A stretch of 38,753 nt of DNA, taken from Clostridia bacterium (GTDB taxonomy: Bacteria; Bacillota; Clostridia; Oscillospirales; Acutalibacteraceae). The translations under genes and the position numbers were made by a program. Positions within the stretch are counted from its first letter, which is position 1; every line of letters starts with the position of its first letter. Where the stretch lies: assembly GCA_017380615.1 (NCBI GenBank), contig JAFODQ010000029.1, forward strand, positions 1 through 38,753, given 5' to 3'. Shown one piece after another: positions 24,052 to 29,233 of this stretch. The notes beneath the pieces were generated by a model. The model did not search any database, was not told the origin of the DNA, and saw only the letters and a program-made list of their open reading frames with translations.

Positions 24052-26520
24052 ATGGAAAAGAAAAACAAGAAAATACGAATTATTGAAGCGAGCGTAACCA
24101 CTGTTCTGTTCGGGCTTCTTATTTACGCAGCATACTCACTGTGGTACATATTCGGTGGTACAGAAAGCAGCTTTGACGTTCACCTTTACACTGTGCTTTC
24201 AGGAACTGCCCTGGGCTGGTTTGTCGCAATGCTCGTTGGAGCAATACGCAAAAAAAGCTCCTGGCTCACAAACCTTATCTGCCTCCTTCTTGGTAATGGC
24301 ATTTTCCAAGGTCTTATATGGGGCACGAATGCAGCCATAAACAAAGAAAATTATCTTAACGAAGCCGTGGTTATAAACACATTCACAGTTGCATTTGCAG
24401 CTTCTGCGATCGTGCTGCTGATTGCGTTTATTATGCGTGCCAAAAGCTCACTCAAGGCTATGAATATTATTCTTGCCATCATATATTTTGTAGTTTCCTG
24501 TGGAGGTGTTTATGTTTTGAATATCGAAAACATAAAAGCACTCAGCTACAAAAAGAACATTGAATTCGGTACAATAAGCGCCGAGGAAATGAAGCTCACC
24601 AACAACGAAATGAACTTCTGCACACAGTGGTTTAACAATAATTTCTACGGTGACGATAACAAATACCCCTTCACCTTCAAGCTTGACGGAAAAGAATTCG
24701 ACCCTGAGCAATGGGAGCAGAATTTGACAGAATCACCTGCATTCGGCACAGTTTATGCAGATGGGCAGACAGAATATATTGTTCTCACAAACAAGAATAA
24801 CGGTCTCGAGGTTACAGTTGAGGCAACGCTTTTCCTTCGGAATGCTACCTGCCAGTGGATTGTATATATCAAAAACACAGGCGATAAAAACTCCGGTGTT
24901 ATAAGTGATTTCTATGCACTCAATTCTTCATTTGCCTCCGGCAAGGCTGATATTTATTATTCAATGGGCAGTAATACTGCAGCAAGTGATTTTTCTCTCA
25001 TCAAGAAAAGCCTTGGCTCCACAGAAAGAATATTCAGTGGTGTGGACGGAAAACCAACAGAAAGCTATCTCCCCTATTTCAATGTCTGCGGCGAAAAATA
25101 TGGATTCGTGCTTGGTATTGGCTGGACAGGACAATGGGCCTCATCATTCTCAAGCAAAAATGGTGAAACAGCTATCACTGTAAAGCAAGATAGCCTTAAG
25201 GCATATCTTCTTCCGGGTGAAGAAATTCGCTCCCCGCTTGTTTCAATAAGCTTCTATGACAACGAAAATCCGCTCAAGGGCTTCAACAGCTTCAGAAGGT
25301 GGATTATGGACAGTGTTTATCCCGAGAACGTGACACAAAACTCCTATACTGTTATGGAGGTCGCAGGCCCTGAATCCACAAGAACAGCAGACGAAATCAT
25401 TGAAATTCTCAACGGACTTGATAACTCCGTTTATGAAAACATTGACGCCTTTTGGATGGATGCAGGCTGGTACAGCTACAACGAGGGCTGGTACGATGGC
25501 GTTGGCAACTGGACAGTTGACACAACGCGCTATGATAACGGCATTTCCGAGCTTTCCGGATATGCTGCCGGAAAGGGACTCGGCCATGTTTTGTGGTATG
25601 AGCCTGAAAGAGTTTTCCCGGGCACTGAATTCCACAAGGCAGGCAGTGAAAAACCACAGTGGTTAATTTCCGTTGATGGCAACGACAACCTTATGTGGAA
25701 TCTCGCAAACGAAGATGCGTTCAAATATTATTGTGATTATATTTTAAACTCCCTTAAAGAAAACGGTGCTACTGTTTACAGGCAGGATTTCAATTTTGCA
25801 CCTTTGAAATATTGAGAAAAGGCTGATGCTGAATATTACGACGGAAGAACAGGCATCTGCGAAAACCACTATGTAACAAACCTTTACAGATTCCTTGATT
25901 ATCTCACAGATAACATTGATGGTCTTATCATTGACAACTGTGCTTCAGGTGGTAAGAGACTTGACCTCGAAATGACATACAGAAGCATCCCATTCTGGAG
26001 AAGCGACTACAACTGTAGCTATCACCCGGATTTGTTTGATGCCACACAATCGCACACTTATGGCATTTCCTTCTGGCTTCCGATTACCGGCTCTGCCCTC
26101 TATATGACAGATGAATATTCCGGCAGGTCAGACATCATGCCGCTTATGCTTATGGATTTTTTCTCACACACTCATCCCGAATTCAGCTATTACAACGAGC
26201 AGAAGGCACTCATGAGCGAAAAGTATTATCCACTGGATTTCGGCAGCTTTGATAACGACAAAATGCTTGCAATGCAGTTCTCCACAGAGGATGCACAGCA
26301 GGGCACAGCACTCATCTACAAGCGCGAAAAGGTTTCTGACAAGGAATACACAGTGAAGCTCAATGGACTTATGGGTGAAAAAACATACAAGGTATATGAC
26401 ATTGACACTCCCGATAAAATTTACACACTCACAGGTAATGAGCTTATGAATGATGGTCTCACACTCCCTCTTCCCGAAGGCAGAAAAGCAATCATCCTGA
26501 TGTTCAGCACCGAGAAATGA
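24052..26520 (+). pseudogene. Membrane-anchored GH36 alpha-galactosidase interrupted by an in-frame TGA
   Basis: One frame of 823 codons runs from ATG at 24052 (GGAG 8 bp upstream) to TGA at 26518-26520, broken only by TGA at 25813-25815 (codon 588). The protein starts with five predicted membrane segments (about 10-36, 44-65, 70-91, 105-127, 133-155), then a GH36 enzyme: FWMDAGW, VLWYEPERV, VYRQDF with nucleophile D579, DNCASGGKRLD (about 628-638), and WRSDYN with the likely acid/base D652. The TGA replaces Trp in the expected PLKYW, so it reads as a TGG to TGA change. The truncated 587-residue product would lack the acid/base. It would remove alpha-galactose at the membrane. A nonsense mutation or assembly error is most likely; readthrough is possible. 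Confidence 0.9.
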
Positions 26521-26537
26521 AGCTTTTGACATTAAGA

Positions 26538-26783
26538 AATCACCACCACGAGTCTTAACGATTATAGTTAGTCGAAACAGTGTAAAATTACACTGTTTCG
26601 ATACCAAATTATGATTTGGTATCGAATTTTCTTCGAAAATTCGACTATAATCCTTTCAATGAATGTAATGCAAAATTGTATTTATAAAAAACAATTTTGC
26701 TAAAAGCCGATAAAATCGGCTTTTGCGAAACGCGACTGCGTTTCGACAAATTACAATCATTATAACGACTTGTGGTGGTGATT
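26538..26783. repeat. Hairpin-array element with terminal inverted repeats (MITE-like or structured RNA)
   Basis: Outer ends AATCACCACCAC (26538-26549) and GTGGTGGTGATT (26772-26783) pair exactly, and the pairing extends imperfectly inward for about 30 bp. A second stem, GATTATAGT (26560-26568) with ACTATAATC (26644-26652), encloses three hairpins. These are 26572-26601 (14 bp), 26597-26626 (13 bp) and 26622-26644 (10 bp), and neighbouring arms share TTCGA. Three more follow: 26670-26700 (10 bp), 26702-26724 (10 bp) and 26726-26745 (8 bp). No reading frame explains it. It begins 17 bp after the GH36 stop and may also act as its terminator. The stretch 26784-26902 shows nothing else. Confidence 0.88.
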
Positions 26784-26902
26784 ATTTTGTGGCTACGCTA
26801 TGGCATCGGATACATAATCGAGCATATCTTCCATTTTGCCCGAACCATAATCTTCCGTTATTTTCTCCTTTTAAAAATATGGATATTATCTTACCATTTC
26901 AA

Positions 26903-26931
26903 TTTACTTTTTACATTATCTATGTTAAAAT
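26903..26931 (+). promoter_or_regulatory. Promoter of the ICMT-like methyltransferase gene
   Basis: TTTACT (26903-26908) and TAAAAT (26926-26931) are separated by 17 bp, 24 bp before the GTG start. AAAGGTG lies between. Confidence 0.55.
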
Positions 26932-26955
26932 AATTGGCAGAAAGGTGATGTTGGG

Positions 26956-27627
26956 GTGAACACTAAATTATTAATTCAGGCAATCGGGAAATTTCTTTTG
27001 GGTGTTTTGCTTGTAGGTTTGCTGGTTTTTCTGCCTGCAGGATCTCTGCATTTTACCCAAGGGTGGCTTATGATGGGTATCCTTTTTGTACCTATGCTCA
27101 TTGCAGGACTTGTCATGATTTTCAAACGCCCACAGCTTCTCGAAAAAAGGCTCAATGCAAAAGAAACAGAAGACGAGCAAAGCCTCGTTGTGAAGCTCAG
27201 TGGTCTCATGTTTCTTGGTGGCTTCATTGTGGCAGGGCTGGATTACCGCTTCGGATGGTTGCCACTCCCTGTTGGCATCTCAATAGGGGCTGCGGTGGTG
27301 TTTCTGATTGCTTACATTCTCTATGCAATTGTGCTCAAGGAAAATGAATATCTTTCCCGTACAATTGAGGTACAGGAAAACCAAAGGGTTATTGACACAG
27401 GGCTTTACGGAATCGTGAGACACCCCATGTATTTTGCCACTTTACTTCTTTTTCTTGCTATCCCACTTGTGCTCGGCTCGATGATTTCTTTTGTGATTTT
27501 CCTTGCATACCCCTTCATCATTGCTAAAAGAATCAACAATGAAGAGAAGGTATTGGAAGAAGGTCTCCCCGGCTACAAGGAGTATAAGCAAAAAGTTAAA
27601 TACAGACTTATTCCATTCATTTGGTAA
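26956..27627 (+). CDS. Isoprenylcysteine carboxyl methyltransferase-like membrane protein
   Basis: The 223-residue protein has five or so membrane segments and the signature GLYGIVRHPMYFATLLLF (about 155-172), the RHP motif that binds S-adenosylmethionine in ICMT/PEMT-like enzymes. EEKVLEEGLPGYKEYKQKVK near the end is the usual C-terminal E-x-Y region. The bacterial substrate is not known. The start is GTG at 26956 with AAAGGTG 8 bp upstream; the nearby ATG at 26948 meets a stop after three codons. Confidence 0.9.
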   Translation: MNTKLLIQAIGKFLLGVLLVGLLVFLPAGSLHFTQGWLMMGILFVPMLIAGLVMIFKRPQLLEKRLNAKETEDEQSLVVKLSGLMFLGGFIVAGLDYRFGWLPLPVGISIGAAVVFLIAYILYAIVLKENEYLSRTIEVQENQRVIDTGLYGIVRHPMYFATLLLFLAIPLVLGSMISFVIFLAYPFIIAKRINNEEKVLEEGLPGYKEYKQKVKYRLIPFIW

Positions 27628-27654: not shown

Positions 27655-28320
27655 ATGAAAAAGCTTTTATCTGCATCTCTTATGTGTGCTGACCTCACAG
27701 ACCTTAAGCCTGCCATTGCACAGCTTGAGGATGCGAAAATTGATTATCTTCACATGGATGTTATGGATGGTGCATTTGTGCCAAACATCACACTCGGCTT
27801 TGACCTGATTAACGCAGTGAAAAAGTCAACAAGCATTCCCCTTGATGTTCACATGATGGTTAATGAGCCCGGCAGATTCATTGACAGAATGGAGCTTTCT
27901 GCAGATGACATAATCTGCGTTCACTATGAATCAGATGTGCACATTCATCGTACACTTGAAATGATTAAAAACAAAGGTTGCAGGGTTGGGCTCGCAATCA
28001 ATCCACAGACACCTGTGGAAAGCATAAAATATCTGACAGAGTATATTGATATGCTTCTTGTAATGACAGTCAGCCCCGGCTTTGCAGGACAGAAAATGTT
28101 CCTTGGTGCAAAGAAAAAGGTGCAGGATGCAAGAAAGCTCCTTGATGAAGCAGGTCTCAGGAATGTGCCCATTGAGGTTGACGGAAACATCAATCTTGAA
28201 AACGGAAAGAGCATGTGTGAAAGTGGTGCTGAGATATTTGTACTGGGCACAAGCGCCCTGTTCCTTAAGGACAAGGCGATCAAGGCTGCTGCTGAGGATT
28301 TCAAAAACTTTTTAGGGTGA
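27655..28320 (+). CDS. rpe: Ribulose-phosphate 3-epimerase family protein (Rpe/AlsE type)
   Basis: The 221-residue TIM barrel has all Rpe hallmarks: LSASLMCAD, YLHMDVMDGAFVPN, PLDVHMMV, the phosphate-loop segment VSPGFAGQKM and the catalytic VDGNI (Asp near residue 176). It interconverts ribulose-5-phosphate and xylulose-5-phosphate, or a ketohexose-6-phosphate pair in AlsE. The kinase gene starts 4 bp after its stop, so the two are an operon. With a ribokinase-like partner, a pentose or rare ketose utilisation role is plausible (inference), and the housekeeping role is not excluded. Confidence 0.92.
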   Translation: MKKLLSASLMCADLTDLKPAIAQLEDAKIDYLHMDVMDGAFVPNITLGFDLINAVKKSTSIPLDVHMMVNEPGRFIDRMELSADDIICVHYESDVHIHRTLEMIKNKGCRVGLAINPQTPVESIKYLTEYIDMLLVMTVSPGFAGQKMFLGAKKKVQDARKLLDEAGLRNVPIEVDGNINLENGKSMCESGAEIFVLGTSALFLKDKAIKAAAEDFKNFLG

Positions 28321-28324
28321 ACTT

Positions 28325-29233
28325 ATGTATAAAGATATCAAGGCTGCTGTGGTGGGCAGCATAAATATGGACTTCATTCTCAAGGCTGAAAAGCTCCCTG
28401 AAATCCACGAAAATGTTCTCGGCTCAACCTACGGCTACGCCAATGGTGGCAAGGGTGCAAATCAGGCAACTGCCCTTGCACGACTTGGTGCACAAGTGAA
28501 AATGATTGGCAAGGTTGCTGACGATGATAACGGAAAATCTCTCATTGCAAATCTCAAGGCGAATAACATAGACACCACCTGCGTGGCAACAGACGGCTCA
28601 CAAACAGGTCTTGCAGCCATCCTCATTGATGGTGAAGGTAGAAACAGGATAATTGTTTATGAGGGTGCAAATGCAGAGATTGACCCTAAAAAAGCCTGTG
28701 AAGGTATTACAACTGATACAGAGCTTTTGCTCATTCAGTTTGAAACCCGTGAGGATGTTGTTATAGAGTGTGTCAATAAGGCAATTGAAATGGGAATTAC
28801 TACTGTCATTGACTGTGGACCTGCTAAAAGCTTTTCACTTGAAAGAATGCAGGGAGCAACAATTCTCTCCCCTAACGAAAGTGAGACAAAGGCACTCACG
28901 GGCATTTATCCCGACACCGATGAAAACATTTTAAAGGCTTCAGAAATTCTTATGGAAAGAAGCCGGGCAAAATACATTGTGCTCAAGCTTGGAGAAAGAG
29001 GCTGTACCGTGTGGGATGGCGAGACAATCAAAGCACTGCCACCATATAAAACTCAGGTAAGGGACACCACCGCCGCCGGAGACTGCTTCACAGGGGCAAT
29101 GGCGCTTGAATATGTGCGCTGTGGCGACATTTACAAGGCTTGTGAGCTTGGAAACAAAGCCGGTGCGATTGCTGTGAGCAGAGTGGGCGCACAAGACTCA
29201 ATGCCAACGATTGAAGAATTGGATAATTTTTAA
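28325..29233 (+). CDS. rbsK: PfkB-family carbohydrate kinase, ribokinase-like
   Basis: The 302-residue protein has the N-terminal PfkB signature GGKGANQATALARLG (about 39-53) preceded by GSINMDF, and the C-terminal signature DTTAAGDCFTGA (about 241-252) with the catalytic Asp of GAGD replaced in context as AAGD. This is the ribokinase layout, with phosphorylation of ribose or a similar sugar at the terminal hydroxyl. The ribosome site AGGGTGA overlaps the rpe stop, indicating translational coupling. A terminator follows right away. Confidence 0.88.
   Translation: MYKDIKAAVVGSINMDFILKAEKLPEIHENVLGSTYGYANGGKGANQATALARLGAQVKMIGKVADDDNGKSLIANLKANNIDTTCVATDGSQTGLAAILIDGEGRNRIIVYEGANAEIDPKKACEGITTDTELLLIQFETREDVVIECVNKAIEMGITTVIDCGPAKSFSLERMQGATILSPNESETKALTGIYPDTDENILKASEILMERSRAKYIVLKLGERGCTVWDGETIKALPPYKTQVRDTTAAGDCFTGAMALEYVRCGDIYKACELGNKAGAIAVSRVGAQDSMPTIEELDNF

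Follow-up and report, generated by a model that had tools for sequence, protein, structure and literature searches.

A probable MITE-like repeat of two cloverleaf palindromes in uncultured gut Clostridia

The window, a stretch of 38,753 nucleotides from Clostridia bacterium (GCA_017380615.1, contig JAFODQ010000029.1), contains within positions 26538-26783 of the forward strand a repeat of 205 bp, which is probably a non-autonomous, MITE-like transposable element composed of two cloverleaf palindromes 2 nt apart. The repeat is short, non-coding and dispersed, with inverted ends, a target duplication and, for one sister copy, an empty site. Two features of MITEs are missing: the autonomous partner, none being found among the searches made, and the usual end-to-end stem. 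Integration takes place at the centre of TTATAA-like palindromes with duplication of AT, and an enzyme supplied in trans, acting with a 2-bp stagger on double-stranded DNA, would move the element. The pairing is probably kept by template switching between the hairpin arms in replication, and selection for DNA that folds possibly helps to keep it. The repeat has a conserved DNA fold with several branches and belongs to a family that spread recently and is widely distributed among uncultured gut Clostridia; no transposase was matched to it among the families searched. In such a family one can ask, on natural material, whether the covariation of palindromic repeats comes from selection or from template switching, and the family cautions against taking strong covariation by itself as proof of an RNA. 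In addition, MAG contigs break at the repeat, and a terminator can be divided by it. The features of the region are collected in Table 1.

Table 1. Features of the repeat and of its host site, in window coordinates
Feature	Position	Strand	Basis or remark
Mobile unit, AACGATTATAG...TTACAATCATT	26557..26761	+	205 bp; homology limits across copies and tandem spacing
Left duplicated dinucleotide	26555..26556	+	TT in the window copy; AT in 99% of 110 distinct left flanks
Right duplicated dinucleotide, AT	26762..26763	+	Evidence of duplication from the sister copy that has an empty site
Left cloverleaf, three hairpins in closing stem AACGATTATAG/CTATAATCCTT	26557..26655	+	Fold, covariation
Spacer of 2 nt between the cloverleafs	26656..26657	+	TC in the window copy
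Right cloverleaf, three hairpins in closing stem AATGAATGTAAT/ATTACAATCATT	26658..26761	+	Fold, covariation
Hairpin 1, 14-bp stem 26572-26585/26588-26601	26572..26601	+	Stem search, covariation
Hairpin 2, 13-bp inverted repeat 26597-26609/26614-26626	26597..26626	+	TTCGA in common with hairpin 1
Hairpin 3, 10-bp stem 26622-26631/26635-26644	26622..26644	+	Stem search, covariation
Hairpin 4, 14 nt, 93%, stem 26670-26683/26687-26700	26670..26700	+	Stem search, covariation
Hairpin 5, 10-bp stem 26702-26711/26715-26724	26702..26724	+	Stem search, covariation
Hairpin 6, 8-bp stem CGAAACGC/GCGTTTCG, 26726-26733/26738-26745	26726..26745	+	Read from the sequence, covariation
Host terminator-like hairpin (split), left arm, outside the element	26538..26554	+	Joined-flank fold
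Host terminator-like hairpin (split), right arm, then ATTATTTT	26767..26783	+	Joined-flank fold
Upstream gene, 182 aa, whose probable terminator is split	25972..26520	+	Gene call, joined-flank fold

Limits, copies and insertion sites

Homology among the copies extends from about 26556 to about 26763 and ends there, according to the search of the window's own genome and the copy profile, which sets the boundary at AT/AACG...CATT/AT. Tandem copies in this genome follow each other with a period of 206-207 bp, which corresponds to the unit plus AT. The inverted ends of the protein-free unit are imperfect over about 22 bp (AAYGRTTRTRGTTWGTCGAAAC), and in one subfamily they are degraded (left GGAATAGG vs right CTACAATC). 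A sequence-only reading of the region had listed its stems, and all of these are present, including the enclosing stem, the 12-bp exact ends (26538-26549/26772-26783) and the TTCGA shared by neighbouring hairpins at 26597-26601. The same reading took the AATCACCACCAC ends for the element's own inverted repeats, an assignment which fails as they lie outside the homology among copies. As candidate element ends they were also sought with at most 3 mismatches: the right arm gave six matches in 5 of the 22 genus genomes, two of them in the window, and in the window's genome the AATCACCACCAC arm matched the window itself alone.

Across the 119 contigs (1.97 Mb) of the window's genome the search produced 53 matches, a number that includes self-hairpin hits, and from these 17 places on 16 contigs were read; several of these places sit at contig ends, and some may be halves of one copy. 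Carriers amount to 12 of the 60 genomes searched, the own one included, and to 4 of 39 genera. The non-autonomous mobile element proposed in the sequence-only reading is therefore supported by dispersed copies with constant ends, by the 2-bp AT duplication and by one empty site. The right-end pattern occurs as 107 exact stretches in the genome collection, and the sources, where named among 80 of the 107 titles, are the guts of herbivores, namely goat, sheep, roe deer, water buffalo, water deer and yak. The pattern had no match in viral contigs, and the window copy had none among plasmids and phages (blastn, E up to 0.01). Of 54 copies, 30 have their closest counterpart within their own genome, against a mean of 6.0 and a maximum of 18 in 2000 shuffles. 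Since the copies resemble those of their own genome, lineage-specific spread is indicated. Genome G009, which is 95% complete, holds five full copies that are 95.7-100% identical. No description of this repeat was recognised in the literature among the matches listed.

Copies adjoin one another at nine places. The arrangement is clearly direct at seven of them, direct with a distant subfamily at L275, and weakly inverted at L214. Related distinct subfamilies (L265 1277-1506 and L275 792-1005, with ends TAATGATTGTAGTGTGTGGAAACGC and TAATGATTATCGAATGTCGAG) stand in tandem mutually or beside family members, which suggests a wider superfamily. Shorter forms at L105 (1111-1217), L092, L024, L124 (3653-3704) and L271 are probable deletion derivatives between internal direct repeats, and they include a lone left cloverleaf (L105) and short single hairpins. 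The possibility that mini-forms of about 50-65 bp (L124, L167, L181, L271) are the smallest units able to move was set aside, because deletion between repeated GTTTCGAC arms explains them equally well.

The insertion itself was followed at a sister copy in the window's genome (G000:C25, locus L016), whose joined flanks were searched in 22 genus genomes and matched in 13 of them, the own one included. Eleven orthologous loci (L248-L258) were aligned; the element is absent from all of them, and the 12 bases at the junction are gap-free in 11 of 11. The local match begins 5 bases left of the junction in five of these loci and at least 39 bases left in the other six, and the intergenic DNA farther left is diverged. 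The old site reads TTATAT in eight loci, TTATAC in two and TTATAA in one, and the occupied site carries AT on both sides. The eleven empty loci thus show insertion for this sister copy, the one insertion for which empty sites were resolved; the search at L012 yielded no alignment across the junction.

Flank statistics were drawn from 110 distinct left and 134 distinct right flanks, with tandems removed and intact end letters required. Against a background of about.35, the left flank shows T at.78, T at.87, A at.99 and T at.99, and the right flank A at 1.0, T at 1.0, A at.75 and A at.71. The junctions and the one empty site show a symmetric, TTATAA-like target in which AT is duplicated. At most copies the junction can alternatively be read as a shifted TA duplication. 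Such a duplication is disfavoured, because the T that it needs is missing in 13% of the 110 distinct left flanks, and AT is present in 99% of the left and 100% of the right ones. The element sites avoid genes: 62 of 77 lie outside all ORFs of at least 100 aa, though ORFs cover 86% of the flanks, 12 have an ORF end no more than 98 bp away, and three are deep in an ORF.

The host sequence around the window copy explains the outer arms. When the flanks were joined in a script, one 17-bp hairpin followed by ATTATTTT was formed (-34.1 kcal/mol for 82 nt), beginning 18 bp past the stop codon of the 182-aa gene, to which no NCBIfam family was assigned. The site was judged by this neighbouring gene, the intergenic DNA being too diverged for base-by-base alignment, and the element stands next to the gene in 0 of 10 orthologues. 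By eye, six of the ten orthologous gene ends carry a different terminator-like hairpin at the same place and four run into a downstream reading frame. The hairpin that the joined arms form after the gene, together with the gene ends in the orthologues, makes it most likely that AATCACCACCAC...GTGGTGGTGATT serves the upstream gene as its terminator and that the insertion divided this terminator within the loop. The AATCACCACCAC arms, which form this terminator-like hairpin with the element in its loop, are therefore host sequence and not element ends. The terminator so interrupted is probably an intrinsic one. The window copy's own duplication has decayed, since the left dinucleotide is TT and not AT. 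One of the ten orthologous loci (L337) has an element copy at a contig end, away from the site. Downstream in the window lie genes for an isoprenylcysteine methyltransferase-like protein (26956-27627), a ribulose-phosphate epimerase (27655-28320) and a ribokinase-like protein (28325-29233), the last two adjacent.

Fold and covariation

The RNA minimum free energy of the region is -113.6 kcal/mol, compared with -46.2 +/- 4.5 kcal/mol in shuffles (z = -14.9; 0 of 200 reach it). The minus strand folded as DNA departs similarly from its shuffles (z = -15.9; 0 of 200). The predicted fold consists of two side-by-side three-hairpin cloverleafs, with the 26538/26783 arms as the outer stem. The hairpin plan of the sequence-only reading holds for the left closed set and has to be extended in the right half, which is a closed three-hairpin cloverleaf as well.

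Covariation was measured in 36 representatives, less than 90% alike, over the 86 pairs of the double cloverleaf and against 500 shuffles. Two-sided changes occur in 55 of the 86 pairs and 87.8% of cells are paired, where the counts refer to sequences and not to events and the structure was taken from one of those sequences. None of the 500 shuffles attains any of the five covariation measures, and the pairing falls to 35-50% when the partners are slid out of register. The left closing stem has two-sided changes in 10 of 12 pairs, with variants such as GATTATAG/CTATAATC in the window, GGTTATAG/CTATAACC at L213 and GGAATAGG/CCTATTCC at L112. Such changes are present in 5 of 12 pairs of the right closing stem and in all 13 counted pairs of hairpin 4. 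The end-to-end pairing of the element shows no covariation: two-sided changes occur in 1 of 19 pairs, which is matched by 359 of the 500 shuffles. Since the closing stems covary whereas the end-to-end pairing does not, the two separate cloverleafs are conserved and the terminal stem is not. Two positions of the right closing stem (columns 121/221 and 125/217 of alignment A1) are unpaired in 30 and 28 of the 36 sequences, and these mismatches look as if they were themselves retained. The spacer between the cloverleafs reads GC in 21 of the 36 representatives, TC in 5, GA in 5 and GT in 3.

Candidate mobilisers and related repeats

The families DDE_3, DDE_Tnp_1, PDDEXK_2, IS30 and Resolvase were searched in the 12 carriers. 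IS630-type DDE_3, DDE_Tnp_1 and PDDEXK_2 were each found in 0 of 12, and an IS30 transposase in one (G046). Resolvase domains were found in 10 carriers, the exceptions being G009 and G015 (80% complete). Among the 22 genus genomes, DDE_Tnp_1 had hits in two and DDE_3, IS30 and PDDEXK_2 in none, and the repeat is abundant in part of the genus; the genus looks poor in transposases of these four families. MAG bins often lose repeated genes, and the absence of a transposase is therefore weak evidence either way. An autonomous parent was not seen among the matches listed for the end pattern in seven genomes, and the 107 right-end stretches had no partner end at gene-length distance within at most 8 kb each. 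End matches outside the known copies in G031 and G046 were also considered as an autonomous parent, and these 16 stretches, read by eye, disclosed none. The same reading assigns them to chance matches, to other subfamilies, or to copies that have decayed or suffered deletions.

IS30 produces a 2-bp duplication in a palindromic target and forms direct dimers spaced by 2 bp. The duplication length, the palindromic target and the direct 2-bp-spaced dimers of the present repeat resemble this behaviour, and for IS630 a precedent is given by RUP with IS630-Spn1, in the passages of PMC2229807 that treat it. That a 2-bp-stagger DDE transposase of one of these known families mobilises the element and was lost from the bins is nevertheless unlikely. 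The TA duplication of IS630/Tc1 (RUP-like) elements is disfavoured here, and DDE_3 has no hit in the carriers. The five IS30 loci, two of which are in G046 with full-length genes, have no convincing matching end pair within 4 mismatches, so that an IS30 transposase with the same ends was not found.

A rather doubtful alternative is that mobility depends on the folded double-cloverleaf DNA, as a cruciform or a single strand, and on an undescribed recombinase with a 2-bp AT stagger in TTATAA. If this were true, the closing stem would be the recognised feature, which would account for its covariation in the face of end matching that does not covary.

The Resolvase domains in 10 of 12 carriers would fit a circular cassette that a serine recombinase inserts, with AT as the crossover dinucleotide, and whose head-to-tail tandems arise as circle insertions. 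The 2-bp overlap, the symmetric site and the seven clearly direct arrangements among nine agree with it, but the lack of a Resolvase hit in G015, and in G009 with its five nearly identical full copies, makes such a cassette improbable. Even less credible is a single-strand element (HUH/Y1, of IS200/IS605 or REP-RAYT type) recognised through its hairpins. Hairpins do lie near both ends and TTAT stands left of most copies, but the right flank is constrained too (ATAA), the ends are inverted, and the target is symmetric, which is not expected of strand-specific Y1 insertion.

The non-autonomous, MITE-like reading can be compared with several known repeats. The BOX elements of Streptococcus pneumoniae are likewise modular palindromic intergenic repeats, and are set apart by a different module plan. 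BOX and RUP are both named in the relevant passages of PMC3049150. RUP of S. pneumoniae and other bacterial MITEs of 100-200 bp (Correia/NEMIS, ERIC) are, as described in passages of PMC2229807, similarly short, AT-rich, non-coding and intergenic, and similarly have inverted ends, a target duplication and many copies. The differences are that these MITEs duplicate TA and form one end-to-end stem, whereas here AT is duplicated at the centre of TTATAA-like sites and two cloverleafs are formed; the hosts also differ, and here no partner IS was found. A further comparison is with the CIR repeats of Caulobacter and Brucella, which in the same source's account also consist of two separate paired arms with a linker, rather than of one stem (PMC2229807). 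The CIR arms, as portrayed there, are long inverted repeats, whereas each arm of the present repeat is a stem with three hairpins, and its ends and duplication are clear.

DNA or RNA level of the pairing

A strand acting as RNA is expected to tolerate G.U and not A.C. In the 36 diverse representatives, the pairs that are at least 70% Watson-Crick contain 39 G.U and 53 A.C cells, and all 86 pairs contain 67 and 80, in a structure that came from an RNA fold and is thereby biased toward G.U. The acceptor and T stems of 17 tRNAs (204 pairs), a control set chosen by a tRNA finder that favours pairing, contain 16 G.U and 0 A.C, and the two tables differ (p = 9e-6). The genus-only set of 38 copies is less clear, with 76 G.U and 16 A.C cells and 17 and 14 distinct states; 57 of the 76 G.U cells are at two positions, and 38 of them represent one G.T pair fixed in 38 of 38 copies.

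A structured transcript, the other proposal of the sequence-only reading, finds little in its favour here. In positions 26000-27400 no Rfam family reached the gathering score, the best being cspA (E = 0.29, 15.2 bits vs 78). That the repeat is a structured RNA (a regulator, a terminator or an RNase III substrate) maintained by selection on the fold, with dispersal as a secondary event, has a very slim chance, since the extreme folding energy, the covariation, one terminator-like site inside the element and the genus-only excess of G.U are opposed by the A.C cells of the diverse representatives, the missing Rfam match, the inverted loops described below and an orientation of 18 co-oriented to 15 opposed at the 33 sites where both neighbouring genes share a direction. 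The covariation that the sequence-only reading had suggested looking for is present, and the G.U/A.C balance of the 36 representatives points to the DNA level, the genus-only count less clearly so.

Among 177 distinct hairpin loops, summed over hp1short and hp2-hp6, the reverse complement is in the set for 50, the reversal for 14 and the complement for 30, as raw counts. An example of such inversion is the hairpin-3 loop in two copies of genome G002 (L096 and L099), which reads TTC in one and GAA in the other within nearly identical flanks. Template switching at inverted repeats yields arm homogenisation and spacer inversion, as passages of PMC8794818 and PMC8604942 describe. From the similar numbers of G.U and A.C, the inverted loops and this precedent we infer that the pairing is maintained at the DNA level, where added selection for folding is possible. 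The template-switched palindromes of these sources, as characterised in those passages, are alike in compensatory changes, arm homogenisation and spacer inversion; unlike them, the present repeat is mobile, belongs to bacteria and keeps to a fixed plan of several hairpins. As a minor observation, a lone right end at L130 (about position 728) immediately precedes the ribosome-binding site and the start of a gene that by eye we take to be pyruvate formate-lyase-like.
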